Assembly (NCBI GenBank): GCA_027922465.2
Contig: BQMF02000010.1
Span: forward strand, 496,001-560,000
DNA: 64,000 nucleotides
Direction of reading: 5' to 3'
Origin: Turritopsis dohrnii
Lineage: Eukaryota; Cnidaria; Hydrozoa; Anthoathecata; Oceaniidae
Under the pieces are notes generated by a model that was not told the origin of the DNA, did not search any database, and saw nothing but the letters and a program-made list of their open reading frames with translations. This document shows, piece after piece, positions 5,527 to 48,722 of this stretch. The position numbers and the translations under genes are program-made. How positions within the stretch are numbered: position 1 is the first letter of the stretch; each line of letters opens with the position of its first letter.

Positions 5527-5529
5527 CTT

Positions 5530-28361: not shown

Positions 28362-28903
28362 TTACTTTTTAATTTTTTTTCTAAAGTACCGATCAATATT
28401 GTAAAATTTTTTCACAATGTCTTCATCATTTACTACGATTCTTATAATTTCCAGATTGTTTAACTTCTCAAACATTATCGTAGTAAAGATGGCGTCTTTG
28501 ATCGTTGCAATTGATGCATTCAATGTTTTGGTAGTTCCAAAGATTCCACAACTTATTGCTGACAGGGAAATAGAGCGACAGGATAATCTGTCAGCTGTTA
28601 ACAGCGACGTTTTTATTGCTTTGGTAAGCAAAGTTGGTTCGGGTTTATCTTTCCCCCATCGAGGTCCTAGAATAGAAAAAAGGGCAGAAAAAAATCTGTT
28701 GATTTGTGTTCAATTTTCTTTATTCTGATATTTAGCACTGAAAACTAAATTTTGATTCTTACCTACAGCGTGGATAACATAATAGCTGTATAGTTTCCCT
28801 GGATTAAGGGCAATTGCTTCCCCAACCGACAAAGTGCCGTTCCCTGAAACATAAGCCCTGCTTTCTTCAGTAATAACATGTCCACCTCGATTACTTTTGC
28901 TAC
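28362..28903 (-). pseudogene. Macro domain, C-terminal two exons
   Basis: Exons 28763-28903 and 28362-28666 join in phase 1 to read VIHAVG/PRWGKDK, a hallmark macro-domain segment. SISLSAISCGIFGTTK (the loop around the distal ribose) and a final helix follow. The N-terminal half, including AIVNAAN, lies at 42841-43101 beyond the Polinton. The exon at 28763-28903 seems to need one extra base near ATCGAGG for a continuous frame. The stop codon lies about 20 bp from the end of the left repeat arm. Confidence 0.78.
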
Positions 28904-29128
28904 CTACAGTATGATAAAATCTTTTGTCAATAATAACAATATTAACAACCAACTGTAATCAGTAGATATAAAAGGCCGGTTCTACATCACCTCTGACGTC
29001 ACAACCTCAAGAACCAATCAGCGTTGAGAATAAGAACCAATTAAATCTAATTATTTTAATTGCTTTCACTAATAAATAGCATAAGCTCGTTTTCAAAGTT
29101 TATTCTCGCAAATCTTACAACATTTAAG

Positions 29129-29749
29129 ATGGAAGTTGGACAAGCTGATACTGTCGCTGCTGTTAAGCAACATTATGAGTCCACTAAATGGCATTTCAAA
29201 AGTATTTCTAGTGAAAAAATCGTTTACGCTCGAGATGAAGATCCTGACGATACAATCATTATACGTTGTCTCTATCCTGCTATGAAAGAATATCACAAAG
29301 TTTTTGGATTGAAAGGTGTTTCACATGTTCATCTTTTGTTTACGGCAATTTTAAAGATAATGAGTAAAAATTTGAAAGAATTAAAAAATCCAATTCGTTA
29401 CGTAAAATTCGAGGATCTACAACAAGTCAAGAATATGTATACGTTAATGGAAGATATAACAAGCAATTGTGTCGTATCAACTAACGATAATGGAAGTGAT
29501 TCGATTCAGCTTAAAATGGAGGATGGAACATACATTGGAATTCAACTCACAATGAAAGCAGACTTTCCTCAATTAATCTTAACCAATCATGATGTCAATG
29601 GAAAATTCATTACTGGCATCTATTTGTTTATTAATGACGGAATCAATCTGTTGAAATATTTGAACACTCGATTTCAATTTCATACTTCAGACTTGCTTAA
29701 ACATGTTCAGAAAAGAAAACACGATCTTGTAAATGACAACTTTTTTTAA
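29129..29749 (+). CDS. Polinton ORF of unknown function (first gene)
   Basis: 206 residues from the ATG at 29129 (MEVGQAD). This start is chosen because the homologue at the window start begins with the same residues, while the upstream in-frame ATG at 29060 lies in TIR-proximal sequence. The protein looks soluble and mixed alpha/beta with no motif I can name. Having two copies in two different Polintons indicates a conserved element gene. It is convergent with the DNA polymerase gene and separated from it by 68 bp. Confidence 0.65.
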   Translation: MEVGQADTVAAVKQHYESTKWHFKSISSEKIVYARDEDPDDTIIIRCLYPAMKEYHKVFGLKGVSHVHLLFTAILKIMSKNLKELKNPIRYVKFEDLQQVKNMYTLMEDITSNCVVSTNDNGSDSIQLKMEDGTYIGIQLTMKADFPQLILTNHDVNGKFITGIYLFINDGINLLKYLNTRFQFHTSDLLKHVQKRKHDLVNDNFF

Positions 29750-29817
29750 TTGTTATTATATGTATGGATAATTAGTAAGAAAATAAACTATACAAAGTAG
29801 CTAATTGATTTTGTCTT

Positions 29818-31771
29818 TCATCCTGTTTTATAATGTCCATACGGAATTGAACTAATTCCATCCTTTAATAAATATCGTTTATCATCATATGCCGACAAAG
29901 TTGTTTTGTTTTGACAAATGGTGAAAATTAAATGTTTTTGTGATCGAATACCATTCATCTTATGCATGTGCTTCACATTTCCAAACAAACAATCGTAATA
30001 ATCTTGATGTGATATATACTTCTTGATGACGTATTTCTTCACACCTTTTGCTTTCGTCATAGTTTTTTTATCAAATTCTAGTGAATACATCTTTGCACGT
30101 AAACCAATAAATTCACGCATTAAACAACCATTCAACTCGTCTTTCATCTTCCCAATCACCTTTTTGTTTTTCGCCGAGTAACACTTATGATCTCGTGAAT
30201 AGCCACTAAAATCGAACAGGTCTTGGTCTTTCAACATATCAGCATATAAATCATTGGTTTGAATACGATAAGCGAGTGAATCCGTATCGGTAAACAACAG
30301 TTTCGATTGATCATCAGGATACTTCACTTTAACATATTGATAATGAAATCGATACATGAGCACTTTACTCAAATCCAAAACAGCCAAACCAGTATAAATC
30401 GGACGATTTAAAATCAAATTCGCTTTCGCTCGTTCCACAGCCACTAGATTTTCATGAAAAACTTTAAATGATTTGAAGGTAGGTTGAGCAGCCAATTTCT
30501 TCAACTGATGATCACGTTTTACCAAATCTACAACTCGACGATTACGTAAATTCTCCATGGTTTTCCCAAACATCGAATTGTTCATTAGTTTGAAAAAGTC
30601 TTTTTCGAATTCGTTTCTAGCAGCGTTACGTTTAGCCGTATTAAAGTCGATATATTTTTTCAACCATGGCGATTGATTAAACATTAAAACACGATGGATT
30701 TTCGTAACCTTTAGTCCCAATTCGAAATACAACTGCAAATTACGATAATGAACGATATATTTTTCCTTGTTATTTAGATTCGGTATCAGTTTTGGTACGG
30801 TTTCTTTTATTGTTGGCTTAATCGGACCAATGAACGGATCTTGTTCATTCATTTTCCTTAATTGATTGATTGACTTACGTTCTTGTTCTTCCAATATCTG
30901 TAGCTGCTTCGTTGACAACATTTCCGGTTTGACTGTCATTCGTTCAGGTGCCAATGGATAATCACTATGAGCATCATGTAACTCTTCAGGATATTCCAAA
31001 TCCACTTCCAAAATATATCCCTGATCACTGTCCTCTTCCACATTCTTCCAGTCAAGGTTTTCAATTTCTTCCTCTGTCATCCACGTAAATGCTCCAGTTG
31101 GTAAGTACTGACACATGGCCCATCCATACAAGTTGTTAGCATCCCAGTAAATCAAATGTTCATTCGGTTTACTATCATCATAATTCGGAAGATCGGGTAG
31201 ATTCGCTTGTGCATAACGATGACTGATGACAGCCACACCTCCACGAATACCACTTTCGATAAACAAATGCATATCGATATCGGTCAGCAATTCTAATTGA
31301 ATGTTAGTCATTTTCAACGCAGCTTGCCAAGCTAATCCAGGTGATGTAAAACAATGTGCTGGATCCAAATTATAATACGTCATACACATGTCTCTAAACG
31401 CTTCAAAGACGTCAGCCAGGAGAAGAACATCTGTCAAGAGATATACATTATGATAATCATGCATATCACGACATTCAAACTTATCGAAAACGTTTTTCGC
31501 ATGTTCATAGTCCTCATTACTGATTCCTTCCTCTGTCAAACTACTATAAAAATGCTCTTTGCTAGGTAATTCTGTTTCTTCCATTTTTTCCCACGAGTCC
31601 ATGTATTCATATGGATAAACACCTTTACGTGTAAGAAGTGCTAATTGTTCGTTAACAGCTTCTTTCATTTCATCATCGAGTTGCGGTACTTTGTAAGGAT
31701 CATTACGATAATCATGTTGTTCTTCTTGTTCGTTTTGATCATCATCATCATCATCATCATCATCATAATCC

Positions 31772-31821
<50 letters not shown>

Positions 31822-34800
31822 TTCATTCTCGTTATCCATATCATCTTCAATATCATTTGATTTATCCTGCTCATCAAATTCTTGTCTAGCTATTGATATT
31901 AGATTTTCCAAAATTTCTTGATCTAATGAATCATCCAATTGAATGTTGCTTTCGACATCTAACGAATCATTCATGTTACTATCTTGCGATGATAGCGCAT
32001 CTCGAACGTCATTCTCGAGAAATTTTCGTGTTTCAGGATAATCTTCCAAATTATCAACTAATTTCGATAACGATGTCTGCATGAATTGACAACTGTCGAT
32101 AAACGTGACTCCGCCAACACTAAACGACGTATATTTTTCATCGGTATTCGGGATACAAGACACATCACCATGACGAGGTTTCACTGCACTAAGGATGAGA
32201 TGAGCATCATAATTTTTCAGATTGTGAATCACGCAAGGTATTTTCACACGCTTAGGATTGATACGATATTGTAGATTACATCTCATGTGAGCAGTCCCTC
32301 TGAATTTTCCAGTGAGATGACAATGATCGCGAGCTTTCTTTTCATCAGACTTAATTTCTTTCTCACACAAATAACATGTGGTACATCTATTATGTGCTCT
32401 CCACTGCTCAGGTGTCAATCGTTCCATCGGTATCTTTTTTTGTAGGTTCTGTCGAATCTCTGTTGCTTGAAGTTGAACCGTATCCAGAAAGTGTTCAGCA
32501 GCATTCTTCCCACGATACACTTTTGGTGATTCATAAAATCGTTTATCTGTACACACAGTATATAATGCATAACCACAAGCTTCATGTTTCTGGTATTTCT
32601 CTGTCCATGGTATATCATCGTTTTGTTGTTCTTGTTCGCACTTTATCAACAAACTTTCAAAATCAGCATACATGACAATGGGTAATCTCAGTTGATACTC
32701 AATCTTTGTAAACTTGATAATATCTTTACCACTACCCTGCACTGGTACTGACACTTTTTGTGCACCATGTAACTGGCATCGTTCGAGATGACGATCAAGT
32801 ACTTCTTGAGTTTGACAAGCATGTGTGCAATATGAGCAAATAAACAACTTGTGATTGTGCTTGTTGATTTGAGAACCAACTAGTGCGCTTAAATTTCGGA
32901 TCAGTGCATAATGTCCCTTTTCACCTTCCGCATAATACAACAAATCCACATGACGATTTGGAATGATATTTTTGCTAATGCGAAGCGGAAACACGACTTT
33001 CTCCTCGAAACCATAAACGTTCACACTCAGGTTATTCTGTCGTTCCACTTTCTCAATGTCCTTGATTGACACTGGATAGTCGATTCCATTCATATCCAAT
33101 TCTTTCTCATAAGGTGTGTATTTGGATACTCGATTAGCGTTTTTGGACCAGTGAACTGGATTGAACTTTGCAAGAATACACCATAAGAGACATTTTTCAT
33201 CCTTGTTTTCGATATTTAAAACGGCTTTCTTTACCTTAATATGTTTTGGTAGGGGTATCCATGAAGATGCTCTCAAAGGATCATAATGTACTATTCCTTT
33301 AGAAAGAACAAAAAGTTAAATGACATCATCTATCAAACAACGTATAAGTAAGAAAAGTAAAATTCAAATTTACCTAAATCAACATGCATAAAATGGTGTA
33401 CAACCCAACCACTACCATTCCTTTGAAATTCATCAATTTGTTGCATCAACTGCGTATAGGCTGTATTGATATATGAATCCAGCTCATCACTGTTTAAGGC
33501 TGCAAAAACTTCTGATCGAAACGTGACCGGTGGATCTGTGAGATCAGTTTCATCTTTCGCTTGACAAAATACCAACTTCAACGTGTAATAATATTTGATG
33601 CCTTTAGTACGTTGAATTTCTCCATTAATGACTGAATTGAAGGTTTTCATGACATTTAAAAGACGACTGAGTAAATCTAGCTGGTTATTCGTATCCAACT
33701 CTTTTCGATACGTCATGGCTGTACGCTTCAAAGTCGATTGTACAAGCTGAGGTGCTTTCCACAATTTTGGATGTTCAGTAGATCCACCTTGTTGATTGAT
33801 TGTTTCAACACACACACGCTTGGGATTATATTCATCCAATGACATTTGTTTCATTTTCCTTTTACTAGTAGTTGATGGTATGTCCATACATCTTCGTTCG
33901 TGTAGTTGTTTAGTATTTTCACGCTCGAACAGTTTTTTACATCGATGACATTGAAAACGTTTCAATCGAGATTCACAAATCTCTACATGTCGTTCAAAAT
34001 TTTCTATTAACAGGAACGTGCGATTACACTTTTCACATTTGTGATGATCTTTAACTGACATTACATCACAATCTAACGGTTCAGACTCCAACACCATCTC
34101 TCTATCGGTCTCTTGAAACAACTTCTCCAGCTCTAACTCTGACATCATCTCTTTGTCTGTTTCTTGGAACAGCTCCTCTAATTCATCTTCTCCTTTTTTC
34201 TCTTCAACAATATAACAATCAGGTGAAGATGTTTCAAAATCAACTGGACAAATACAATCCATTAGAAATTCATCAATATCAAAAGAATTATCGATATCAG
34301 CATTATTTGTCGGCATGTATTTGAAGAGATCTGCCAAAATTTCATCCAATTCGATGTCCTAAATAATTATAAAAGTGGAAAAGCTTTTCGAAAAAGTTGT
34401 AAAGGTTTTTAAAAAGTGGAAAAGCTTTTCGAAAATGTTGTAAAGGTTTTTTAAAAGTGGAAAAGCTTTTCGAAAATGTTGTAAAGGTTTTTTAAAAGTG
34501 GAAAAGCTTTTCGAAAATGTTGTAAAGGTTTTTAAAAAGTGGAAAAGCTTTTCGAAAAAGTTGTAAAGGCTTTTTTAAAAGTGGAAAAGCTTTTCGAAAA
34601 AGTTGTAAAGGTTTTTTAAAAGTGGAAAAGCTTTTCGAAAATGTTGTAAAGGTTTTTAAAAAGTGGAAAAGCTTTTCGAAAAAGTTGTAAAGGTTTTTTA
34701 AAAGTGGAAAAGCTTTTCGAAAAAGTTGTAAAGGTTTTTAAAAAGTGTAAAAGCTTTTCTAAAATGTTGTAAAGGTTTTTAAAAAGTGGAAAAGCTTTTC

Positions 34801-35264
34801 TAAAATGTTGTAAAGGTTTTTTAAAAGTGGAAAAGCTTTTCGAAAATGTTGTAAAGGTTTTTAAAAAGTGGAAAAGCTTTTCGAAAATGTTGTAAAGGTT
34901 TTTTAAAAGTGGAAAAGCTTTTCGAAAATGTTGTAAAGGTTTTTAAAAAGTGGAAAAGCTTTTCGAAAAAGTTGTAAAGGTTTTTTAAAAGTGGAAAAGC
35001 TTTTCGAAAAAGTTGTAAAGGTTTTTTAAAAGTGGAAAAGCTTTTCGAAAATGTTGTAAAGGTTTTTAAAAAGTGGAAAAGCTTTTCGAAAATGTTGTAA
35101 AGGTTTTTAAAAAGTGGAAAAGCTTTTCGAAAAAGTTGTAAAGGTTTTGCAAAATTAAAGAAAATTACCTCGGTTATTGTGTTATGTTCAATTAAAATAT
35201 GTTCATTACACATTTCTTCACTGATAAATTCTAATCCACAAACACAGCATTGAACAGTAGCCAT
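29818..35264 (-). CDS. Protein-primed family B DNA polymerase (pPolB), three exons
   Basis: Exons 35169-35264, 33374-34358 and 29818-33296 join with GT/AG introns of 810 and 77 bp, giving about 1519 residues. The N-terminus has C2H2-like fingers (CCVCGLEF; CEKCNRTF; CHRCKKLF; CSYCTHAC). The exonuclease shows YADFESLL, NLKNYD and YLLTDVLLL. A zinc/HNH-like segment (CYLCEKE..DHCHLTGKFRG) precedes it, as in other Polinton polymerases. Polymerase motifs are DANNLYGWAM (A), KLMNNSMFGKTM (B) and FTDTDSLAY (C). It would replicate the element by protein priming. A poly-Asp tract (about 31741-31822) is encoded by an ATC/ATG triplet repeat. Intron 1 is filled by a 41-bp satellite. Confidence 0.94.
31741..31822. 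repeat. (CAT)n triplet repeat coding for poly-Asp in pPolB
   Basis: About 25 near-perfect CAT triplets on the plus strand read as GAT/Asp on the minus strand inside the polymerase, between the exonuclease and polymerase motifs. Frames showing poly-Ile or poly-Met here are artefacts. Confidence 0.9.
34371..35150. repeat. 41-bp satellite in pPolB intron 1 (about 19 copies)
   Basis: The unit has GTGGAAAAGCTTTTCGAAAA followed by a GTTGTAAAGG tract and a T/A run. GTGG recurs at 34375, 34416, 34457 and so on, a strict 41-bp period. Each unit holds the 12-bp palindrome GAAAAGCTTTTC. The array makes up nearly all of the 810-bp intron. A period that is not a multiple of three explains the spurious long open frame there. 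Confidence 0.93.
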
Positions 35265-35460
35265 CTTTATTTAAATCTAAAACAAGATGTTACTCACTTG
35301 AAATTTTACAAGAAATGAAAGGTAGCGCAAACGTTTTCACTTGCTTTATACACATTTATACTGATTTCATGTAAAAAGTACTGAATTTATAATGATAACA
35401 TGTAAAGTATCACATTTAAATCTATTTTATCAGCGTAAATCAGTCATGTGTGTCAGTTGA

Positions 35461-36117
35461 ATGTTAATCATCATGGAAGTAACATTAAAACATCCATTTA
35501 GTATGTTAGTTGCTGGTGGTCGTCAAGTTGGAAAAACAGAATTTACAAAAAACCTATTACGCTATGCTGAACAATTAATTTATCCACCTCCACAAAGAAT
35601 CGTATGGTGTTATGTAAAACATCAGCCTGAATTATATCAAACACTAATGGAAATCAATACAAATATTGAATATGTTGAGGGAATTCCTTCACAACTTCAT
35701 GAGATGTTTGATCGTAATCAAAGAAACTTGATCATATTAGATGACATGATGGATGAAGCCAACGAAGATAAACGCGTTTCACAACTATTCACTCGTGGAC
35801 GACATGATAATATGTCAGTTATTTTTCTTACACAGAACCTATTTCATAAACAACAGCGTTGTATCAGTTTAAATTCAGATTACATGGTAATTTTCAAAAA
35901 TGCTCGAGATAAATCACAAATTCTCCATCTTGCCAAGCAATTTATGCCTACAAATTCAAAATTTCTTATATGGGCTTACAAAGATGCAACACAAAAACCA
36001 TTTTCTTATTTACTTCTTGATCTAACACCAACAATGGATGATAAATATCGAGTGAGAACAAACATATTCCCTCATCAAAATCCACAATTTGTATACATTC
36101 CTAATAAAATGATATAA
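35461..36117 (+). CDS. Genome-packaging ATPase (FtsK/HerA type)
   Basis: A 218-residue ORF with Walker A GGRQVGKTEF (about residues 20-29) and Walker B NLIILDDMMDEA, followed by the arginine-bearing LFTRGRHDNMSVIFLTQN segment typical of the A32-like packaging ATPases of Polintons and related viruses. It would drive DNA into capsids. The ATG at 35461 is used; an in-frame ATG at 35473 is equally possible. It is the first gene of a tightly packed plus-strand group of virion genes, divergent from the polymerase across about 200 bp that must hold both promoters. Confidence 0.93.
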   Translation: MLIIMEVTLKHPFSMLVAGGRQVGKTEFTKNLLRYAEQLIYPPPQRIVWCYVKHQPELYQTLMEINTNIEYVEGIPSQLHEMFDRNQRNLIILDDMMDEANEDKRVSQLFTRGRHDNMSVIFLTQNLFHKQQRCISLNSDYMVIFKNARDKSQILHLAKQFMPTNSKFLIWAYKDATQKPFSYLLLDLTPTMDDKYRVRTNIFPHQNPQFVYIPNKMI

Positions 36118-36139
36118 CTAACATTCAAAACTTCATTTC

Positions 36140-36490
36140 ATGCTAGAACATCAACGTGTACGGATCGATATGACCAAACGCATTACAAAAAATTTGGAAC
36201 TGTTAAAAGCACTTAAACATTGTAGTGGTGCTGAACAAAAACAGTTTCTTAGAACAGCTCGACCTGAATTGATAAACACCATTTGTGATTGTATTCACAA
36301 CGTTTTAAAAGGAAACGTACCTATTACAGATCATCAGAGGAAGAAATTACAAACAAAGAAGAAAGTACTCAGAGAATTGGTTAAACGAAAGAATAAAACA
36401 GCCCAAAGAAAGAAATTGTTAGTTCAACACGGTAACGGCTTCTTAACAAACATTCTCGGTACTGTCATTAACGCATTAGCAAGTCTGTAA
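36140..36490 (+). CDS. Small basic Polinton protein, unknown role
   Basis: 116 residues. A Lys/Arg-rich helical body (KRITKNLELLKALKH, HQRKKLQTKKKVLRELVKRK) ends in a hydrophobic Gly-containing tail (GFLTNILGTVINALASL). A similar small basic ORF with such a tail is common in Polintons beside the ATPase, from memory of the family. Position between ATPase and capsid genes suggests a virion or DNA-binding role; this is inference. It follows the ATPase by 22 bp and precedes the next ORF by 2 bp. Confidence 0.6.
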   Translation: MLEHQRVRIDMTKRITKNLELLKALKHCSGAEQKQFLRTARPELINTICDCIHNVLKGNVPITDHQRKKLQTKKKVLRELVKRKNKTAQRKKLLVQHGNGFLTNILGTVINALASL

Positions 36491-36492
36491 AA

Positions 36493-37149
36493 ATGGATGT
36501 GGGGAAAAAATATGTTGTTATTTCACAAGAAGAATACGAACGACTTAAAAGTGGAAAAGTTATTATGCATCAACCAACTCAAACTAACATGCAGAAATCT
36601 GAAATGGAAATGAAAAATGTTTGGCAACGTGACATTCCTATTGATGAAAAAATACGTTTGTTTACTGAAGAATTAAACAATTTCAAAAGTCGTTATGAAA
36701 AACTCATCAAACCTAAACCTATCGAAGTTGTTATGAAGAAAACAGAACAAGCTCATGAGACGAAAGAACGAGATTTATTAAAACCAAAGAAAGTAGAACA
36801 AGATGTCATTATAGAATCACTTCCGAAAACCATAAAAAATGATGGTAAACGATTGTTAAGTTATTTAAAATCACATCCAGATGTTGTTCGTTGGAATGAT
36901 GATGGTGAAATTGTATTTTATGATAACGTTGTTCATGGTACGGACGTTGCTGATTTGTTACGTTATGCACTATCAAATAGAAAGTTTGTAAATCTTCCAG
37001 CGAATCATAAAACAATATTTCAACAAGTGCTAAGTGACTTGTCAGTACCCAAAACATGGATTAAAAACAAAGAATCAATGGATCAAATGATGGAAACTCC
37101 AAAAAAGAGACAAAAAGCAATGAAATGGGACTCTTCTACTTATAGATAA
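36493..37149 (+). CDS. Polinton protein with coiled coil, unknown role
   Basis: 218 residues. The N-terminal third starts VGKKYVVISQEEYERLK. A charged, probably helical middle follows (LFTEELNNFKSRYEKLIK), then a more globular C-terminal region (LLSYLKSHPDVVRWNDDGEIVFYD) and a basic end. I do not recognise a named domain. It is packed 2 bp after the preceding gene, as one would expect of structural genes in Polintons. Confidence 0.6.
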   Translation: MDVGKKYVVISQEEYERLKSGKVIMHQPTQTNMQKSEMEMKNVWQRDIPIDEKIRLFTEELNNFKSRYEKLIKPKPIEVVMKKTEQAHETKERDLLKPKKVEQDVIIESLPKTIKNDGKRLLSYLKSHPDVVRWNDDGEIVFYDNVVHGTDVADLLRYALSNRKFVNLPANHKTIFQQVLSDLSVPKTWIKNKESMDQMMETPKKRQKAMKWDSSTYR

Positions 37150-37318
37150 ATTGTATCATGGTTGTTTTTGTTTGATTGAAGTACGTTCAAAAACGCAAAT
37201 TCTATGTAAGCTTTCAATGTAAAAAGATACCATCGTAAAACCTCAGTCAAGCAAAAACAAAATAAATAGAATTGATTGTAAAATATGAATTCATTTATCG
37301 TCTGACTGTGTTTGAAGA

Positions 37319-37462
37319 ATGCCGTCCTTAAAACTTCGTGTGCGAAACTTATTAAAACGTTGTCGATGTATCATTGCATGTTGTGGTTCTGAAATAGTTA
37401 TTAAAGATAGTCAGATTGATGGCAAAGCAAAAAACTCAGTCAGACAGAAAAGAATACATTGA
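37319..37462 (+). CDS. Possible 47-residue Cys-rich Polinton peptide
   Basis: A short ORF from the ATG at 37319 with a basic N-terminus and a Cys cluster (CRCIIACCGSE). It overlaps the start of the integrase gene in another frame. It lies in the only sizeable gap between virion genes. Support is limited to the unusual composition and position; it may be chance. Confidence 0.3.
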   Translation: MPSLKLRVRNLLKRCRCIIACCGSEIVIKDSQIDGKAKNSVRQKRIH

Positions 37463-38528: not shown

Positions 38529-39286
38529 ATCATCAATTTTATGTGGTTCTTCCAAGTAACAGTTCCATGAAACTCTATCCAAGCAACACCTGCTCTCACT
38601 TTCGTGTTAATCTCTCCACTATGCTTGACATTAACCCAACACAATGGGAAGTTGGACTATCAGAAATACAATTCCCTGGTACATTTGAGAATATACGAAA
38701 AAATAAAAATCGAATTATATTCCATGTGTATGGTATGGATTATGAAGTTGACATTCCTATAGGATATTACAAAGAAACCAAACATCTCACGACTGCTTTA
38801 CATCGCATACAAACCGAACTTGACTTAGAATGTGCAGTTTTCAATTATGATGATATCACTCAAAAAACAACTGTCAGAACTTATTTGCCCGAAAATTATC
38901 ACGTAAGACTATTAAACTCAGATGTTGCTCGCTTTTTGGGATTTGAACCAAACACAGTAATATCAGATGAATTAACATCTCCATATCAAAATTCACCTCA
39001 CAATGGATTACATACCTTGCTGGTTTACTCGGATCTGATACAAAATCAATTCGTTGGTGATGTGAAAGCTCCTCTCTTGCGATCTGTTCCTATTAATCAA
39101 AACAAAGAACATTATCATTGCATCATGTATGACCGTCCTCATTTTCTACCTTTGAGTAGAGGATCTATTCAAACAGTAGAAGTCAATATAAGAGATGACG
39201 CAGGAGATTTTATGTCATTTACATCTGGACGAGTGATCGTGACGCTTGTCTTCAAAAGAAAATCTGCAAAATTTTATGATGATTAA
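38525..39286 (+). CDS. Minor capsid (penton-like) protein
   Basis: 253 residues starting MNHQFYVVLPSNSSMKLYPSN, the usual opening of the Polinton single-jelly-roll minor capsid protein, followed by WEVGLSEIQFP and an alternating beta pattern. The C-terminal half contains LLVYSDLIQNQFVGD and VEVNIRDDAGDFMSF, matching the conserved C-terminal strands. It would form capsid vertices. It overlaps the integrase by 4 bp, and its end overlaps the next small gene by about 10 bp. Confidence 0.85.
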   Translation: MNHQFYVVLPSNSSMKLYPSNTCSHFRVNLSTMLDINPTQWEVGLSEIQFPGTFENIRKNKNRIIFHVYGMDYEVDIPIGYYKETKHLTTALHRIQTELDLECAVFNYDDITQKTTVRTYLPENYHVRLLNSDVARFLGFEPNTVISDELTSPYQNSPHNGLHTLLVYSDLIQNQFVGDVKAPLLRSVPINQNKEHYHCIMYDRPHFLPLSRGSIQTVEVNIRDDAGDFMSFTSGRVIVTLVFKRKSAKFYDD

Positions 39287-39659
39287 TAATCGTATTCAAC
39301 CAATGTGGCAGTATGGAAACGGTTCACATGTGTTTAAAGGACCAACATTACAAAAAGGCTATGGACTTGGTGGATTATTCAAAGGACTAGCTCGAAGTTT
39401 CGCTCCTGTCCTGAAACGTGGACTTGTGAGTGCAGGAAAGCATGTACTTAAAACTGGAATGGATGTTTTAGAAGATGTTTCACAAGGTACAAACTTGAAA
39501 GAATCTTTTAAGAATCGATCTATGCAAAACGCGAAGAGTGTTATTAAAGGGCAAGTGAGTGCTTTAAAAGGTGGTACAAAACGAAAAAGAGTCAGTCCTA
39601 CGAAGACTTCTAAAGTGACAAGACGTAATAAAAGACAAAAGGTGGATATTTTCGATTAA
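39276..39659 (+). CDS. Small basic core/virion protein
   Basis: 127 residues from the ATG at 39276. This start overlaps the minor-capsid stop (39284-39286); an in-frame longer start lies inside the minor capsid gene. It has a Gly-rich segment with an amphipathic helix (GLGGLFKGLARSFAPVLKRG) and a very basic C-terminus (GGTKRKR, RRNKRQK). The composition recalls adenovirus pVI/pX-like core or membrane-active proteins, and a protein of this type is expected here in Polintons. The exact role is inferred. Confidence 0.6.
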   Translation: MMINNRIQPMWQYGNGSHVFKGPTLQKGYGLGGLFKGLARSFAPVLKRGLVSAGKHVLKTGMDVLEDVSQGTNLKESFKNRSMQNAKSVIKGQVSALKGGTKRKRVSPTKTSKVTRRNKRQKVDIFD

Positions 39660-39662
39660 AAA

Positions 39663-40850
39663 ATGGAAAAAAACGAAAGTCATTTGGAATGCACACTCTC
39701 GGATACGGATTTGTTCACTCCCTCGTTTATACAAAGTGATATTCAGCATGGATTTTATGAAGAAATTTTTCCAATCTCTCAGTTGGATGATAGCGGACCG
39801 ATAGAGTTTTCTATAGAAAATGCCACGGATAAATTTATTGATGCTGCTAATACCTATCTCAAAATGAAAATTAAAATCATCAAAGCAGATGGAACTAATA
39901 TTGTCGTAGATGAAAACGTTGCTCCAATTAATTATCTGATTGCTAGTTTGTTTAGTCAAGTGGATGTAAAGCTTGGTGGATGCATGATTTCAAGTTCTAG
40001 CAATAACTACTCTTATCGTGCAATGTTAGAAACTCTACTTAATTTTGGACCAGATGCGAAACAATCACAACTCGAAATGGGATTATATTGTAAAGATGTA
40101 GCAGGACATTTAGAAAGTACCAATCCAGCGGAAAATGTCGGTTTTAGAGAAAGAATGAGTTATTTTACAGAAAGCAAAGTGGTGGAACTTTGTGGACGAA
40201 TTCATCATGATATTTTTCATCAAGGGAGATTAATCATCAACTCTTTACCGTTGAGAATTACTTTACATAGAAACAAAAATGATTTTTCGTTAATGTCTGG
40301 AGCAGAAAATCCACAATACAAAATCGTAATTACAGAATCTGTGTTACGTATACGAAAAGTTCAATTGACACCACACAAGTTTATGGAAATTCAACAAAAT
40401 CTCGAAAAAGAACCTATAGTGTATCCCTTGAATCGTGCAGATGTGCGTATGCACTCTGTTGCCGCCGGTCTTACTTCACTCAATTGGGATAATGCATTTC
40501 AAGGACAATTACCAAACCGTGTTTTTATTGGAATGGTGGATAATGTGAGTTATACAGGACGATATAATCGCAATCCTTTCAATTTCAAACACTTTTCAGT
40601 AAGCAAACTGGGAGTATTTATAAATGGAGAATCTCTACCTGCTCAACCTATGAGATTTAATTTTGAACAAGATCATTATTTGGAAGGTTATCATAGTTTA
40701 TTCACAGCAACTGGTAAATCAGGTCATGATGAAGGAATTGATATAAATAGAAGAGAATATAAAAACGGTTATACGTTATTTGGATTTGATGTTTCACCAG
40801 CTACGTGTCATGGAGGACATCAAGAAATTGTGAAAAGAGGAGCACTTTGA
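39663..40850 (+). CDS. Major capsid protein (double jelly roll)
   Basis: 395 residues beginning with an acidic segment, then DIQHGFYEEIFPIS and IEFSIENATDKFIDAANTYLKMK, the typical entry of the Polinton major capsid protein. It continues with LINSLPLRITLHRNKNDFSL, then RKVQLTPHKF and a C-terminal GYTLFGFDVSPATCHGG segment. Length and order fit the double-jelly-roll family that forms hexons. It starts 3 bp after the preceding stop. The frame is fully open, so the element may still be able to make particles. Confidence 0.88.
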   Translation: MEKNESHLECTLSDTDLFTPSFIQSDIQHGFYEEIFPISQLDDSGPIEFSIENATDKFIDAANTYLKMKIKIIKADGTNIVVDENVAPINYLIASLFSQVDVKLGGCMISSSSNNYSYRAMLETLLNFGPDAKQSQLEMGLYCKDVAGHLESTNPAENVGFRERMSYFTESKVVELCGRIHHDIFHQGRLIINSLPLRITLHRNKNDFSLMSGAENPQYKIVITESVLRIRKVQLTPHKFMEIQQNLEKEPIVYPLNRADVRMHSVAAGLTSLNWDNAFQGQLPNRVFIGMVDNVSYTGRYNRNPFNFKHFSVSKLGVFINGESLPAQPMRFNFEQDHYLEGYHSLFTATGKSGHDEGIDINRREYKNGYTLFGFDVSPATCHGGHQEIVKRGAL

Positions 40851-40967
40851 GTTGAAATTGAATTTTCCGTGCCACTTCCGAATACGATTACTGTGTTATT
40901 GTATGCAGATTTTGATAATTCATTGTCAGTGGATAAAGCGAGAAACGTATTGAAGAACTATTAAAAA

Positions 40968-41435
40968 ATGAACACTAAAGAACTGCGATGTATGTTAACG
41001 CGTGACTCGAAAATCCGAAAATTACTTATAGATGTTTTTGCTTTGGATCAGTTTAAAGAGTTTGTTAAAAGAAATCAACTTGTAAATGGAATATATATCG
41101 TAAACAATCAAGAATCTTCAAAAAGTGGAGAACATTGGTTTTTAATTTATGTAAATGAACACTATGTTAATTTTGTGGATTCTTTTGGTAAATCACCTGA
41201 ATTTTATAAAGTTTACGATGAACTTTACTGTGAGAAACCTATTCTACAAAATACTGTACAAATACAATCGAGTTTTGCTAATACTTGTGGTGGTTATTCG
41301 ATATTCTTTAGTTTTCATTTTGCAAGAGGAAAAAATCTAACACAAATTCTTAGTTATTTCACTAACGATTGTCAAATGAATGATGAACGAATTAGAAATT
41401 TTATTTTTAAGGTATTTCCAGGACACTTTTTGTAA
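40968..41435 (+). CDS. Adenain-like cysteine protease
   Basis: 155 residues. The catalytic triad of adenovirus-type maturation proteases is visible: H in SGEHWFLI, D in NFVDSFGKSP, Q in VQIQSSFANTCGGY and the nucleophile C in the same segment. It would process capsid precursors. About 117 bp without a clear gene separate it from the major capsid gene. Confidence 0.92.
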   Translation: MNTKELRCMLTRDSKIRKLLIDVFALDQFKEFVKRNQLVNGIYIVNNQESSKSGEHWFLIYVNEHYVNFVDSFGKSPEFYKVYDELYCEKPILQNTVQIQSSFANTCGGYSIFFSFHFARGKNLTQILSYFTNDCQMNDERIRNFIFKVFPGHFL

Positions 41436-41758
41436 CTTTATTTCTGAAGAAAAAAAAAAAAACAAAAAAAAAAAAAACATTTACCTTGATCGTCCCTTTC
41501 GAATGAATGTAACAGAAAAGAGAGTGAAAATGAAATGCGAAAATTTTTATAGCATAATTGAATGTCGGAACTCTACAAAGAGTATCATGAGAAAACTATA
41601 AAAGCACTGTTAACAAGTTGGGGAATTGAATAGAGTAAATATAATTATGATAAGACAACAATTGTTATTCTAAAAAATATACTTAAAATACACGCACGTG
41701 TGAAATAAATATCTTTTTATTAGATAAAACACTCCAGGTGTAAATGATTATAAAAGTT
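41436..41758. other. Convergent spacer in the Polinton
   Basis: Contains an A-rich run at 41450-41476 and AATAAA-like signals (about 41706). It probably holds 3' ends of the converging protease and minus-strand genes. No gene. Confidence 0.5.
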
Positions 41759-42121
41759 TTAAGAAAATAAATGACAAAGGTCAGTTAATGATGATGTACG
41801 TACGTATGAAGGAATCCATGAAGAAGTGAACATATAACAATAACCCAGTCCCTTTTGATAATCCATGTAAAATTGACCGTATGCATTGTGAAGAACAAAG
41901 TGTTTATAAGTCGTTTTCGACATTCTTGCAAGGAAATCATGTCTAATACCCATATCGGGATGCTTCGTTAAAATCTCATCAAATGGAATAATTTCATTTA
42001 AATAGGCATAACCTAAAAATTGATAAACGAGCGTAGTATTAAGTTGTCGTATGCTAAGTTCTGGATGTCGTTCTTTTTCCATTTGTATAATTTCTGTAAA
42101 ACAAACCGATTGTTGAAACAT
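41759..42121 (-). CDS. Polinton ORF, unknown (120 aa)
   Basis: An ATG-started ORF of 120 residues, rich in aromatic residues (VYQFLGYAYLNEIIPFDEIL, YGQFYMDYQKGLGYCYMF). I recognise no domain. It is located between the protease and the right TIR, on the minus strand, with its 5' end near the next ORF. A real gene is likely from its length and composition in an otherwise compact element. Confidence 0.5.
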   Translation of the reverse strand: MFQQSVCFTEIIQMEKERHPELSIRQLNTTLVYQFLGYAYLNEIIPFDEILTKHPDMGIRHDFLARMSKTTYKHFVLHNAYGQFYMDYQKGLGYCYMFTSSWIPSYVRTSSLTDLCHLFS

Positions 42122-42199
42122 TCTTTAAGAGTTGGAATATATTAAAACAAAGAGTATATGAAATTTATTTATTTATTCATTTCTAGAATGATAAAAATA

Positions 42200-42616
42200 T
42201 TACAATTCATTTTCAAACCATTCATTGAAAGAATAATAAACATTTGAGAGAGATTGACATAAAAGTTCTTCTACGCTTTGAAGCCATTCGGAATCATCAT
42301 ACAGTTGTTCTTTGCTTATAAAGTCTTTGCATTTCAAGCGTTTTGCACAAAGTTCATTACTTTTCATAAAATCTACCATATGGAATAGATTATAGAAATT
42401 GTCGAAAACCAACTCCTCGATAGATTTCATCACGCAGTCGTGTTGTAGTTGAGATGGATGATCGATTTCACATCCATAACACTTTACTGTTTGCATAAAC
42501 AACGTTTTCATTTCTCGTGCCACAATTTCGCATAATGTTCGACGATAAAGCGACTGTGTGGAATTTAGATCCCATTCATCAATAACACACCATTCTTCCA
42601 AACCTTCGAAATTCAT
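42200..42616 (-). CDS. Polinton ORF, unknown (138 aa)
   Basis: 138 residues starting at an ATG about 105 bp inside the right TIR, so it would be the first gene transcribed from that end. It is acidic overall with several Cys (CYGCEIDHPSQLQHDC might bind metal). No named family is recognised. Its position mirrors the unknown ORF next to the left TIR. Confidence 0.5.
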   Translation of the reverse strand: MNFEGLEEWCVIDEWDLNSTQSLYRRTLCEIVAREMKTLFMQTVKCYGCEIDHPSQLQHDCVMKSIEELVFDNFYNLFHMVDFMKSNELCAKRLKCKDFISKEQLYDDSEWLQSVEELLCQSLSNVYYSFNEWFENEL

Positions 42617-43254
42617 TTTTGAAAAACAAACTTTTCTAACAATTTGCTGGTGTTCCTCTCGAAAGTAAAATTCAACTGTTACACTTGAATGATTATATTA
42701 ATGACTGTATTAATGAATGTACAACGCTGATTGGTTCTTGAGGTTGTGACGTCAGAGGTGATGTAGAACCGGCCTTTTATATCTACTGTAATCAAAGCAG
42801 TTGAACATGGAACTTGTACTGAAAGAAAAATGGAACTTACACATCCTCCGTGGTCAAGATTGCTGTTTGCTGCATTTACAATTGCATGCGTTCGTTCAAG
42901 CGAAATATCTTTTTTTAAAACTTAAAAGTAAAAACATTAAGTAGATCTATCTTTAAATCGATTAACCAGTGAAAATGTGCATCGTCACTTTCAATCGAAA
43001 AAGGAGCCCTTTCCTTGAACTTGTAGATACAGTGTCTTACCTTGAATCACAACGGTTTTTTCTTTGGATGGATTCAAATAACTCATTGCACATATTTGTT
43101 CCTTTAATACAGAATAAATAAAGTTGCATTACAAAGTTGGATATGTACCGTGGCCCATTAGTGACATCTAGATCAATTTTATTCCATCAAATACAATTTA
43201 TTATTGAGTTAACATTATCACGTTTTATCTGCCTATGCCACCTTTCTCGATCAA

Positions 43255-43800
43255 AAAAATATCGACCCCATTAGAAAATATTTACTTAAATTATCACGTC
43301 CTTTTGAGTTAACTGTCCATTTCGTTTATTATCACGCTTTTCCCGAACTAACTGTCTATTACGTAACTATTAACGTGCCTTTCCCGAACTAACTGGCCAC
43401 TGTGTAATCATTATCGCGCCTTTCCCGAACTAACTGGCCATTATATTATCTTGACATCGCTCCCAAATTAACTGTCCATTTCTTAAGAATTATCACGCCT
43501 TTTTAAACTAACTGTCCATTTCGTATATTATCGCGCCTTTCCCGAACTAACTGCCCATTACGTAATAATTAACGCGCCTTTCCCGAACTAACTGTCCATT
43601 ACGTAATTATTAACGCGCCTTTCCCGAACTAACTGTCCATTACGTAATTATTAACGCGCCTTTCCCGAACTAACTGTCCACTATGTAATCATTATCGCGC
43701 CTTTCTCGAATTAACTGCCCATTTCGTGCACTAACGTGCTTTTCCCGAACTAACTGTCCATTACGTAATCATTAACGTGCCTTTCCCGAAATAACTCTAC
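43255..43800. repeat. Subterminal repeat array, left arm (IS3EU-like)
   Basis: About ten units of the form CGCGCCTTTCCCGAACTAAC + TGTCCATTACGTAAT. Its inverted counterpart is 45765-46215. Such arrays are probable transposase-binding sites. Confidence 0.9.
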
Positions 43801-43982
43801 CGTAATTAAATGTTTACTTTAATTCACATGTCTGTGGAATTTCATCAGCAATCCACAATCACAGCAAAGCAGTAGTGCTTACAGGAAGATAAATGGTATT
43901 AGACTCGTTTCCTATTTTGTATTGAAGTGGTGGGGCTTAGAAGAGAGAGTGCAGTATGAGTGATATATAGATATAAGGATAT

Positions 43983-45155
43983 ATGGGAGATTCAAGAGAA
44001 GACATTATTTCTCGTTATTTTCATTTGGATTACAGCTACAATGAGATTTTATGCACTCTGCAAGAACTGTATGGAATAAAGATATGTAAACGTCAGTTAC
44101 ACAGAATATTGCGACAGCAGAAGTTGTACCGAAGAAAGGAAAATAGCTGTATTAACGATATTTTGATTGCAGTGAGTATTGAGATAATAAATGGAGCTGG
44201 ACGATACTTTGGCTATCGTAACATGCACCAAAAGTTAAGAAGTATAGGGTATACTGTTGATCGTGAAACTGTAAGAATAGGTATTAAGGCTTTACATCCA
44301 GATGGGGTATCGATGAGAACAGCTAGACGATTAGTGCGACGAAAATACTCTAGCAACTAGAGGGCCAAACTATCTGTGGCACCTGGAGGCTATGACAAAT
44401 TGAAACCATTTGGATTTGCCATCCATGGTGCCATAGATGGTTACAGTCGTAGAGTGTTATGGCTTCATGTTTGTAAAACTAACAATGACCCAAAGGTAGT
44501 AGCATCCTTTTATTTGCGATGTATTGGACAGCAAAATATAGTTCCAAGGTGCGTTCGAACTGATAGAGGGTCAGAAAACATTATTATTGCTGGTGTTTAG
44601 CGATATCTGCGACGATATGGAACAGATCAAATGGCAGGACACTTAAGTTTTTTGTTTGGTAGTTCAACTGGTAACCAAAGGATTGAATCATGGTGGTCTT
44701 TATTCAAACGTAATTGTTCAGGATGGTGGATAAATATGTTTAAAGATTTAGTTGATTTGGGAATTTATGATCCAGACGTTTCATTTCACGTTGAATGTGC
44801 AAGGTTTTGCTTCATGCCCATTCTGCAGAATGAACTTGACGAGACAATTTTACTATGGAACAATCATAGGATAAGAAAAGTTAGAAATTCTGACGCTCCA
44901 TCGGGGCGCCCAAATATCTTATATTTTTCTCCAAGACTGACTAATGTGCCGGAATGTGGTTACGCTTTGAACAGCAGAGACCTGAACATTGCATTACAAA
45001 TGATAGAAGATCCAAATGCGCTGCCATGTACGCCAGAAATGAATGAATTATGCAAGCGATTGATGACAAGAAATAATTTAGCCTTACCGAAAAATCCAAA
45101 GGGCGCCAAAGATTTATTTATGGCATTGATTCAAGAAATAGATAATTTTGTATAG
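43983..45155 (+). pseudogene. IS3-like integrase-core transposase, broken
   Basis: Three open blocks lie in the same frame: 43983-44357, 44376-44597 and 44631-45155. The N-terminus has a helix-turn-helix (YSYNEILCTLQELYGI..RQLHRILRQ). The core keeps the second D (VRTDRGSEN) and the E (NQRIESWW). The first D region is damaged. A short insertion brings in a TAG near 44358, and a base missing near 44385 restores frame but removes the D. A further in-frame TAG lies at 44598-44600. This copy cannot encode an active enzyme. Confidence 0.82.
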
Positions 45156-45764
45156 TTCTTAGGAATTCATTTTATAAGAATTACACTATCCTTTTTAACT
45201 GCAATGGGTTTTTTTTCTAACAAAGTCATGGTTTTGTATGTTTGAACAAGATGTTTGGAGACATTACAGTATATTTAACTGAGAATTTCTCCTCACAATA
45301 AGCTCCTGTATGTAACATGATTGAAGTTACCTTTGGTTGAAAATTGTCAAAGAAAATAAGTACAAAAATGTTGAGCTATTATGTTTGTTAAAGTTTAAAA
45401 AATTTAAAAAATATTGATAGAGAACCGAACATTAATGATTTGAAACAAAAATTTGTGTTTTAATATTATGATAGACTTAAAAGTCATGTAGAAAGACCTT
45501 AAAACTAGTAGCTGGAGCTTCACTTCATCACTTCACTTGTTGTTTTGAAGTTAAAGTTTCATTAAACTGTTTGTTTTCCTCGTAGTTGATGAAAATTGGT
45601 TGCTTTAGGTGTTTTTGATTATTTCGTAATTATGATATCGCTTTTAACTTTGCACAAGTCACACGCAGTTCCAGAAACAAATTAATTGACTCATTTTTCC
45701 GACACTTCTAGCTGCCATCTTTCCATCTTTTCAAGCGCTGACTTTCCCGCCATCAGCCATTTGT

Positions 45765-46215
45765 TCCAGAAAGGCGCGTTAATAATTACGTAATAGACAG
45801 CTAGTTCGGGAAAGGCGCGATAATAAACGAAATGGCCAGTTAGTTCGGGAAAGGCGCGTTAATAATTGCGTAATGGACAGTTAATTCGGGAAAGGCGCGT
45901 TAATTATTACGTAATGGGCAGTTAGTTCGGGAAAGGCGCGATAATATACGAAATGGACAGTTAGTTTAAAAATGCGTGATAATTCTTAAGAAATGGACAG
46001 TTAATTTGGGAGCGATGTCAAGATAATATAATGGCCAGTTAGTTCGGGAAAGGCGCGATAATGATTACACAGTGGCCAGTTAGTTCGGGAAAGGGACTTT
46101 AATAGTTACGTAATAGACAGTTAGTTCGGGAAAAGCGCGTTAATTATTACGTAATGGACAATTAGTTCGAGAAAGGCGCGATAATATACGAAATGGACAG
46201 TTAGCTCAAAATTTA
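45765..46215. repeat. Subterminal repeat array, right arm (IS3EU-like)
   Basis: The inverted counterpart of 43255-43800, built from GTTAGTTCGGGAAAGGCGCG units with TTACGTAATGGACA spacers. The preceding 45156-45764 holds no gene. Confidence 0.9.
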
Positions 46216-47424
46216 TTTAAGTAAATATATTTTCTTGTAATGGAAGGATTAAATAGTGGCATAGGCAGATAAAACGTGATAATGTTAACTCAATAATAAA
46301 GTGTAGTTGATGGAAAAAAATGTCACTAATGGGCCACGGTAGATATGATATTAAAATAGTTTGCTTCAAATTTTGGAAACATTTTTGATTGTGTACTTAC
46401 ATTCATGAGGAACTGGGAATTATGTGCTGTAGGAAGGTAGGTACCATATATGAACTTAGAAGCTTCTTTATAACTAGTATGTTTAAGTTCCATTACATAC
46501 AATGTTATAACTTCTGGAAATATGACAAAACGAATTGTGTCATGATAAGTAGAAACCATGTTGATTTTCATTTCCGTGCGTTCGGTACCACCAAAATCCA
46601 CAATGTTGTCTTCGTCCCTGTTTCTTTCATATAGCAACATATTATGTGTTTCATTTATATATTGTTCTGTGGTATCTCCAAGCATTGACTTCAACGAGTT
46701 TATATAAATACTTTCCTCTTTTTTAGCGTTAGCTTTGAAGGCGCTAATGGACTTCGTATTACGAAGGGCGTCAAGCCTTTCGGAATTGTGATACCCTTTT
46801 AATCGTCGCTGATAAGGTCAATCAAAAACGACTTCTTTGAGCGAATAAAAGTAAGGAGATCTGTGTTGGTTTCATCGTCAAGATCTAAAATTAGGAAAGA
46901 ATCATTCATGATAATAGAAAAAGGTATAATGAGAATGATGATTTTGTTTTAGATTTCTCCATGGAATGGAAAGTAACCTTACCAGATTCTCTCATTGTAT
47001 TCTTCACGTCGTTATATTCACTCTCTTTGTTGTAATTGTCGTTATGGCTAACTATAAATGTAACATTATTAATACAAAATAATGTCAATAAAACAAACTG
47101 TAAGTTTTCTACGTTTATTGCAAATTTCAGAGGGATTGTTAACACAAAAGAAGAGTTTAAGTAATTAAGCGAATTATGATTTACATACTTCATTGTAAAA
47201 ATAGATCAGAACGTCTGAATGCGTATGCAAGAAATCAGTGCTTACCTGGTGAAGTATCAATATCATTCCATGCAGAATGTAAACGTTGTTTATCATCGAC
47301 GTTGGCAGTTTTTGTTTCAGAGCTTGTCTTCGTAGCTGGTTGCGTCGTCACACCACCTTAAAGGTGAACATTTTTTTAGAATATGTACAAAATATATAAC
47401 GACGACAAAGTCCAAGCATAATTG

Positions 47425-48240
47425 CTAGAAATGCATAACCAAACCTTGAAGTTTATGTTCTTTGCCATTACAAGACGGTCTGAGACATTTTAAAGGTTTG
47501 CGTTTCTTCTTTGGTGACTTGACAATTTCCTCTTCGTTTACTACATTCTTTTCCAGCTCTTCATTAGCAGAATAGCTTGAACTTGAAGTATCAATAAAAC
47601 ATTTGAACGAACGTGAAATCACTTTGCTTTTAACCAAGTCTGGATCGGTTGCCATGGATGTTAACACTTTCTTTTCGTACACGTTCTTTTTCCTTGTGCA
47701 ACAGCGTGCCATGTTCGCTATCCAGTAGCGTAACTCGGCAAAATCACCTTCATCAAGCTTTTCCATACTTCTGTTAACCATAGAATACGCATTAAACCAC
47801 AGATGTACACCACAGTCATAACCATTTTCTTGTATGTTAATATCTGTTGGGGATATAAACTTCCATTCGTCAATATCTATTTCTAAGCCTGAACGATTGA
47901 GGGCGTGCTTTAAGAACGAAAAAACAGTTGATAAAACTTCTGGATACATTCTGTGAAAAGAATCGAAATGACACATCACTCTTTCTTGCATATAAATCCC
48001 CACTATTGACCAGTGTCGATCAACTGATGCCCCTCGATGATGTATAGGAATCAAGATTAAATCATCGGCTATCAGTTCTTCACCATTCGCATTAGTTCCC
48101 GCCAGAGTTGGTCGTTGCTGTTCCAGAGATGTGTAAAAGTACGTGTCAAACACTCTCACTTTAAAATCCCTTTCGCTGGTTGCCAACTCTTTAAGGAAAC
48201 AGTTGATGACATCAGAATTTAACAATTTTCTTTGACACAA
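47425..48240 (-). CDS. Ulp1/C48-type protease domain exon
   Basis: This is the longest open piece of the split gene. It holds a full papain-like Ulp1 core of about 200 residues with all catalytic positions (H, D, Q, C as above) and ends in a basic Lys-rich segment (KSPKKKRKP) before a donor at 47444/47445. There is no ATG at its start. Upstream in another frame, IWFGDLDLNNEVIS continues the same domain, separated by one missing base near 48250. The coding region begins directly at the border of the right tandem-repeat arm, so any further N-terminal exons were not captured or are lost. Confidence 0.8.
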   Translation of the reverse strand: MCQRKLLNSDVINCFLKELATSERDFKVRVFDTYFYTSLEQQRPTLAGTNANGEELIADDLILIPIHHRGASVDRHWSIVGIYMQERVMCHFDSFHRMYPEVLSTVFSFLKHALNRSGLEIDIDEWKFISPTDINIQENGYDCGVHLWFNAYSMVNRSMEKLDEGDFAELRYWIANMARCCTRKKNVYEKKVLTSMATDPDLVKSKVISRSFKCFIDTSSSSYSANEELEKNVVNEEEIVKSPKKKRKPLKCLRPSCNGKEHKLQGLVMHF

Positions 48241-48299
48241 TGTTCTTAATCATCACCACTTATGACTTCATTGTTTAAGTCAAGATCACCAAACCAAAT

Positions 48300-48605
48300 C
48301 TGTAGTTCTTGGGTGTTAGAGGTATTTCGATGTTTGGAATTTTAACGCCAAGGTGAAGGGTGTGGCACAGTTTGTTTTAAGTCCAAAGTAACCCTCATGG
48401 GTTGGGCATTTGTCTAATAAGAGTGAAAAGTTGTAACAATTTAGTTCCCAGTTCCCAAATTGCAATGTTCTGAAGATATGTAGTTCTTGGGCGTCAGAGG
48501 TATTTCGATGTTTGGAATTTTTACGCCAAGGTGAAGGGTGTGGCACAGTTTGTTTTTAGTCCAAAGTGACCCTCATGGGTTGGGCATTTGTCTAATAAGA
48601 GTGAA
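48300..48605. repeat. ~178-bp tandem repeats, right arm of the composite element
   Basis: About two units in inverse orientation to 27180-28345 (GGGCATTTGTCTAATAAGAG recurs 178 bp apart). The array is shorter than the left arm. It is followed by the terminal AAAATGTGGTGCTGG units and the end at 48713. Confidence 0.92.
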
Positions 48606-48722
48606 ATTTCTATTGCTAAGTAATTTTTTGGGGAGGAATTAAAAATGTGGTGCTGGAAAATGTGGTGCTAGAAAAATGTGGAGCGGAAAATGTGGTGCTA
48701 ACTTCACGTTGGTACAAAGAAC

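Follow-up and report, generated by a model that had tools for sequence, protein, structure and literature searches.

A Turritopsis dohrnii Ulp1-macro gene as the probable 3′ half of a Mutator-type transposase gene

Can a DNA transposon carry a SUMO-type protease and a macro domain in one gene, and would such a gene be the element's own or one taken from the host? The question is raised by a 64,000-nt stretch of the Turritopsis dohrnii genome (assembly GCA_027922465.2, contig BQMF02000010.1, positions 496,001 to 560,000), which we call the window and whose numbering is used for all positions. A preliminary description of its sequence predicted an Ulp1-type protease spliced to a C-terminal macro domain within the terminal inverted repeats (TIRs) of one transposon, encoded by the element or captured from the host. 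Our analysis indicates that the window gene is quite probably the degenerate 3′ half (Ulp1-E4-macro) of the transposase gene of foldback, Mutator-type DNA transposons. Their longer relatives would encode, in order, a DNA-binding-like region, a DDE-type transposase-like region, a PHD finger, a ubiquitin-specific peptidase (USP; family C19), and Ulp1 (family C48), followed by exons for E4b and macro.

Domains of the window gene and its longer relatives

Both domains of the window gene, which lies on the minus strand, are real as judged by profile and motif matches, and the macro domain is split over several exons. The Ulp1/Peptidase_C48 match (47428-48249; Pfam E value, 7e-17) spans profile positions 2 to 202 of 217, and the catalytic residues H79, D96, Q140, and C146 are all present, as had been predicted. 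SENP2 (1.1e-9) and SENP1 were the nearest solved chains by sequence, and SENPs ranked first for a low-confidence model of the protease (mean predicted local distance difference test [pLDDT], 43). By its profile and H-D-Q-C residues, the protease is a peptidase C48. Pfam placed macro pieces in three minus-strand open reading frames (ORFs; 42682-42921, 0.035, below the cutoff; 28713-28958, 1.1e-4; 28365-28709, 5e-8), and the pieces joined as a single string were nearest to the PARP14 macro domain (7e-24), which agrees with the macro domain of the preliminary description. Macro domains are recognized by their ADP-ribose loop motifs. NAAN, GPRWG, and AISCGIF are present in the window; the first glycine loop is altered there and intact in two related loci, L009 and L030. 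All six predicted splice junctions have GT-AG ends.

To place this gene among its relatives, we searched the window's own assembly (436 Mb, 891 contigs) with the Pfam Macro model. The search returned 67 places, from which 20 regions were chosen and examined; counts out of 20 are therefore not a census, and the module models behind them were built partly from those same loci. A USP (UCH) domain lies upstream of Ulp1 in L010 and L014. In L014, Pfam matched PHD (2.4e-5), UCH (5.2e-10), and C48 (7.3e-17), with E4 and macro downstream, and the 5′ part holds only the start of the transposase-like region, together with a DNA-binding-like region for which no Pfam family passed the cutoff. A search with this upstream part found 23 places, four of them with open frames of 1,135 to 1,938 aa. 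In one of these, L030, a single uninterrupted ORF of 1,904 aa (ORF1) comprises the transposase-like region, PHD (0.004, below cutoff), UCH (4.8e-19, full profile), and C48 (3.3e-12, positions 2 to 203 of 217). On the same strand, ORF1 is followed by E4b, which matched no Pfam family above cutoff, and by macro exons (1.2e-8 and 3.5e-7). The signature of MULE-type (Mutator-like element) DDE transposases has a C(2)H motif between the second D and the E, and D..D..CxxH..E was seen by alignment in L030 and L031. ORF1 of L031 is spread over two frames, its downstream part lying outside the stretch examined. L033, the C9 copy, is a near copy of L030 with the same module set, the two being either separate loci or two haplotypes; its element measures 12,690 bp and has 1389-bp TIRs of 98.9% identity and a 9-bp target site duplication (TSD; GAATTTCTT).

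Because these longer relatives carry Ulp1 behind a transposase-like region, the window gene would be the 3′ half of a transposase gene and not a captured host gene. The suggestion of an element-encoded gene thus fared well; the preliminary description missed the far larger gene of which this one is the 3′ half and which also encodes a PHD finger and another peptidase, specific for ubiquitin. The ends of the elements point to the Mutator/foldback class, in which TSDs measure 8 to 11 bp and typically 9: they are 9 bp in all four cases with both ends (the window, L009 at the same site, L011, and the C9 copy). The TIRs, too, are long and contain tandem repeats, as in foldback types (178-bp repeats in the window, the 1389-bp TIR of the C9 copy, and 179-bp repeats measured in L030). 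Ginger1 elements combine a 4-bp CCGG/CCGT TSD with an rve integrase; in the outer window element the TSD is 9 bp and integrases lie solely inside nested elements.

One gene or two

Ulp1 and macro occur together in the same order in 9 of the 20 regions, namely, the close siblings L009 to L015, all with outer-element TIR sequence at one or both ends, and the more distant L022 and L027. E4b with at least one macro piece on one strand was found in 16 regions; L017 and L019 have macro only, and L025 and L026 have none of the modules. In siblings that lack the Polinton nested in the window gene, Ulp1, the linker exons, and macro follow in order. Exons 2 and 3 and the 5′ part of exon 4 recur in seven siblings (L009 to L015), and exon 4 itself is unbroken in L009 to L011 and in L014; the L012 copy of it is cut, and the L013 and L020 copies are broken. 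In L024, a distant and internally deleted relative, the Cys-box half of Ulp1 and E4/E4b share one uninterrupted ORF, 141 of whose 149 residues from the Cys box on equal a stretch of L027 that Pfam places on C48 at 6.7e-4, just below cutoff. On this sequence evidence, a single gene most likely encodes both Ulp1 and macro. This part of the preliminary description gains support from the siblings and from the L024 ORF.

We estimated selection from Nei-Gojobori counts as the ratio of nonsynonymous to synonymous change (dN/dS). For ORF1, dN/dS was 0.31 between L030 and L032 (92 synonymous and 111 nonsynonymous over 1,902 codons) and 0.33 between L033 and L032; the Ulp1 part of ORF1 gave 0.31 on 18 differences (L030 and L032). 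The C part of macro gave 0.24 on 9 differences between L014 and the window. Between L016 and L018, dN/dS was 0.20 for E4b (dS = 1.07) and 0.12 for the macro C part (dS = 1.88). ORF1, E4b, and macro are under purifying selection in several pairs.

A number of observations nevertheless weigh against reading the window gene as the end of such a transposase gene. In L014 the transposase core is mostly missing; in the L030 ORF, Pfam matched neither a transposase model (MULE included) nor FLYWCH; and the D..D..CxxH..E alignment is weak in L027, poor at the last acidic residue. Upstream modules were detected in few of the 20 regions (USP in two, PHD in two, and the DDE region in three). None of the examined regions holds a fully intact copy of the subfamily to which the window element belongs, and C48 was not called by Pfam in the L024 ORF. 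As for selection, the E4b and macro ratios between L016 and L018 are rough at such high dS, and the near-identical pair L030 and L033 shows no constraint (1 synonymous and 8 nonsynonymous over 1,893 shared codons). Further comparisons are adverse or uninformative: macro between L024 and L027 (0.64 on 13 differences), E4b between L014 and L009 (0.54 on 6 differences), E4b between L016 and L021 (one change), and other distant pairs, which gave 0.22 to 0.37 with dS near saturation or were saturated (four pairs).

The same side of the balance holds the connection between the two halves: from position, strand, splice-like sites, and recurrence, we infer that ORF1 is joined to the E4b and macro exons by splicing. 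An unlikely alternative, and the strongest of the rivals, is that ORF1 (transposase-PHD-USP-Ulp1) and a separate E4b-macro gene lie side by side in the same elements. In both L030 and the window, ORF1 stops ahead of the E4b exons, and every E4b-macro join requires introns; L032 has kept ORF1 and E4b with no macro match; and E4b-macro was found without detected Ulp1 in 7 of the 20 regions. Evidence against two genes comes from the single L024 ORF that runs from the Ulp1 Cys half into E4b, from the acceptor-like AG ahead of E4b in L009, L014, L016, L018, L021, and L030, and from the recurrence of exons 2 and 3 in seven siblings. A two-gene reading taken from the exon-4 stop of the window is weakened by the unbroken exon 4 of the siblings.

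Far less probable is that the TIRs picked up a host Ulp1-macro gene, as Pack-TIR or Pack-MULE cargo. The window element does carry this gene alone, its 5′ end cut at the TIR like that of captured fragments, and the gene retains introns. Against capture, Ulp1 of the relatives shares an ORF with the transposase-like region, and several diverged groups have E4b-macro next to pieces of a transposase or integrase. In a whole-database protein search, all 69 matches at E ≤ 1e-3 were macro proteins, none with both PF02902 and PF01661 (among 7997 candidates scored, those sharing most words). Another such search gave only two fungal Ulp1 proteins, neither with macro, and exon 1 alone drew 363 candidates from the protein database, none at E ≤ 0.1. 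Capture was set aside after L014 and L030, in which the supposed cargo is part of a transposase gene. That two unrelated fragments became neighbors by chance in a repeat-rich region, as the frame breaks and huge introns of the window might suggest, is refuted by the recurrence of the module order in 9 of 20 regions and by selection on the parts in several pairs, and we give it practically no weight. The 3′ half of a transposase gene thus stays the preferred reading.

Nested insertions and decay of the window copy

The window copy is a relic because its frame is broken in exon 4 and at the exon 6/7 junction and no start codon precedes the protease core. Exons 1 to 3 read into exon 4 and then stop at about 46801; the remainder of exon 4 is open only in a different frame, which leads into the macro exons. 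From exon 6 to exon 7, one of six donor/acceptor pairs tried was in frame (donor 42843), at the cost of the conserved macro VA-x-x-I motif and loop, and the better-looking donor 42841 leads to a frame break. The first M of the protease core is residue 87, the catalytic H is residue 79, and a TGA lies directly upstream. Neither compatible phases throughout nor a working enzyme can thus be upheld for this copy. Codon statistics were uninformative for the linker exons and exon 1, as was the predicted fold of exon 4 (pLDDT, 31.7). With the transposase gone and little of the 5′ half left, the window copy is nonautonomous and must be moved in trans.

Exact-limit searches resolved what had been described as one transposon into three nested elements, each with its own TSD; the predicted TIRs are real (Table 1). 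The nested Polinton/Maverick has a 6-bp TSD, a TIR beginning with AG (a perfect 67-nt match that includes one TSD base), an rve integrase, and an A32-like ATPase. Its capsid match (8e-5) is under the Pfam cutoff, no model for PolB, which is protein-primed in Polintons, matched in the Pfam scan (motifs were read by eye only), and its protease ORF had no Pfam match. Removal of the Polinton (empty site) leaves an intron of 106 nt with GT and AG ends. In the other nested element, the rva_4 integrase ORF is interrupted by two in-frame stops. Both insertions sit within introns of the Ulp1-macro gene, where the two elements would have landed; the probability of this by chance (P = 0.08) was not used as evidence.

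Table 1. Features of the outer element, its gene, and the nested elements
Feature	Position	Strand	Basis
Outer foldback-type DNA transposon, contains two nested elements	27067-48713	gene on −	TIR termini ACCAACGTGAAG, 9-bp TSD ACAAAGAAC, sibling copies
Left 9-bp TSD of outer element	27058-27066		
Right 9-bp TSD of outer element	48714-48722		
Left TIR with ~178-bp tandem repeats	27067-28326	+	
Right TIR, first 82 nt with 1 mismatch to left	48298-48713	−	
Exon 1, Ulp1/C48 peptidase, 5′-truncated	47445-48249	−	PF02902 7e-17; SENP2 1.1e-9
Exon 2, linker	47246-47356	−	GT-AG, open frame; recurs in siblings
Exon 3, linker	46983-47051	−	GT-AG; recurs in siblings
Exon 4, E4/E4b domain of unknown function; frame break at ~46801-46817 in window copy	46401-46884	−	Unbroken in L009-L011, L014; selection between relatives
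Exon 5, start of macro domain	43041-43101	−	Splice sites
Exon 6, macro N-terminal motif AIVNAANSNLDHGG	42843-42908	−	Pfam 0.035, below cutoff
Exon 7, macro middle; frame problem at 5′ end	28763-28903	−	PF01661 1.1e-4
Exon 8, macro C-terminal part and stop	28362-28666	−	PF01661 5e-8
Nested Polinton/Maverick, in intron between exons 6 and 7	28961-42787		Perfect TIR, TSD GTAATC, rve, chromo, A32-like ATPase
Nested rva_4-integrase element, in intron between exons 4 and 5	43146-46341		TIR TACCGTGGCCC, 6-bp TSD GATATG, PF24764

Comparison with siblings shows that these elements have been mobile. The flanks of L009 equal those of the window (97.4% over 3,014 bp on one side and 96.7% over 418 bp on the other), with the same TSD, and by this measure L009 is an allele or a very recent duplicate of the window locus. 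L009 has neither the Polinton nor the second nested element, an absence that, given equal flanks, points to insertion polymorphism between haplotypes or recent duplicates. L011, which holds the second nested element (99.7% over 3,196 bp), occupies another site and is flanked there by a separate 9-bp TSD (GGAATAAGA); the truncated copy has therefore moved. The frame lesions are mosaic: L011 shares one Ulp1 break with L009 and the macro lesion with the window. Such sharing among the three copies suggests recombination or gene conversion between copies.

Two copies of one host repeat (82 to 88% identical; window positions 48714-49113 and 26667-27066; L034 and L035) harbor the window element and its C9 relative, at insertion points that differ by about 10 bp. 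The 3′ flank of L014 resembles this repeat as well (77% over 80 bp), a possible target-site preference. Within the relative at L027, ORFs at 2417-4014 of that locus resemble a piggyBac-type transposase by eye. The Polinton contains about 19 copies of a 41-bp tandem repeat (34289-35286) and two minus-strand ORFs of 121 and 165 aa (41762-42697) with no Pfam family above cutoff. Elsewhere in the window we noted another long-TIR element (1962-7310), whose TSD is 9 bp long (GTTTCTTCG) and whose 845-aa ORF matched no Pfam family above cutoff. At 9631-13605 lie large ORFs, possibly of a DIRS-like element, with a weak match of phage-integrase type that stays below cutoff. A DDE_Tnp_4 transposase (18006-19127; 2.8e-25) and a 267-aa ORF nearby (20181-20984) form a pair that we take to be Harbinger-like. 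Repeated BTB-type gene pieces surround the elements (415-801, 22064-26217, 52399-53257, and 59137-61437; one checked, PF00651, 2.4e-12). Rfam at gathering scores gave no match in the window, and viral contigs gave no match by protein or by TIR.

Related mobile elements and possible function

The most surprising observation is a related E4b-macro tail beside a different type of transposase. Four of the 20 regions (L016, L018, L021, and L028), which we take to be Ginger-like, have an rve integrase, a PHD finger, E4b, and macro and are without an Ulp1 match. In L016, Pfam matched the rve integrase at 4.5e-12 and PHD at 1e-5; PHD was matched in the other three as well, and L028 yielded no C-terminal macro exon. 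Integrase and E4b-macro occupy separate ORFs, linked by their order on one strand at four loci, and the tail is about 50 to 60% identical to that of the window family. A ubiquitin-hydrolase-like part read by eye in this group was not supported by Pfam.

Ulp1 itself is not new to transposons. Mutator DNA transposons of hydra and lancelet encode it, as cited in PMC2836005, and they likewise place Ulp1 in an animal Mutator-type element; here, instead, USP and Ulp1 (with PHD) share one ORF, with macro downstream. A text search of the main text of that paper found no word beginning with "macro." In that paper, Ginger1 transposons are given 4-bp CCGG-type TSDs and an integrase-like transposase that carries Ulp1 or OTU at its C terminus and, in some cases, PHD, to be set beside the rve integrase, PHD-like region, and E4b-macro of our integrase group; no macro is reported there for Ginger1, and the window element differs in its 9-bp TSD and lack of an integrase of its own. 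A Trichomonas protein joins transposase_11 to Peptidase C19, that is, a ubiquitin peptidase to a transposase as here, with a different transposase and no mention of Ulp1, PHD, or macro (PMC2836005). In plants, Ulp1 is carried by KIU/Kaonashi MULEs, on the VANC-type gene, and the sections of PMC13317346 at hand name no USP or macro; that paper reports escape from silencing for KIU elements with Ulp1 and assigns no known role to Ulp1 itself. The NeSL/Utopia non-LTR (long terminal repeat) elements also have an Ulp1-like protease in a mobile element's protein, but these are retrotransposons, for which the accessible text mentions no USP or macro (PMC4640811). Tetris foldback transposons, attributed to Mutator, resemble the present elements in their long TIRs, internal tandem repeats of ~220 bp, and 8- to 10-bp TSDs, and their copies are without conserved ORFs, unlike the elements here (PMC4079207). 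No description of Ulp1, USP, or PHD combined with macro and transposase was found among the listed titles and abstract starts, and an undiscussed Repbase entry could exist. Animal Mutator elements with Ulp1 and a protist transposase with C19 were known, and the addition of USP and macro appears to be new.

What might such an assembly do? The PHD finger would bring the transposase to chromatin; USP and Ulp1 would take ubiquitin and SUMO off the transposase itself or off silencing and repair factors of the host at donor and target sites; and macro would bind or remove ADP-ribose laid down by host PARPs at breaks. The sum of these activities may counter host repair or silencing. We can propose only tentatively, and with some doubt, that the ubiquitin and/or SUMO deconjugase, PHD reader, E4b, and macro form a transferable cassette shuffled between unrelated transposases (Mutator-like DDE and Ginger-like integrase), with which the elements would erase marks (ubiquitin, SUMO, and ADP-ribose) placed on transposition intermediates by host repair or silencing.

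Ulp1 has been noted on animal Mutator and Ginger elements since at least 2010, its role being only proposed; the authors who described Ginger suggested a repair role for Ulp1 and OTU in transposases (PMC2836005). A ubiquitin-type and a SUMO-type peptidase in one transposase-like ORF, with macro adjacent, point to host tagging at transposition sites as the target that is countered, and this lineage offers long open genes for testing that idea. Such a transposon seems to bring along tools of its own with which to edit the protein tags of its host.

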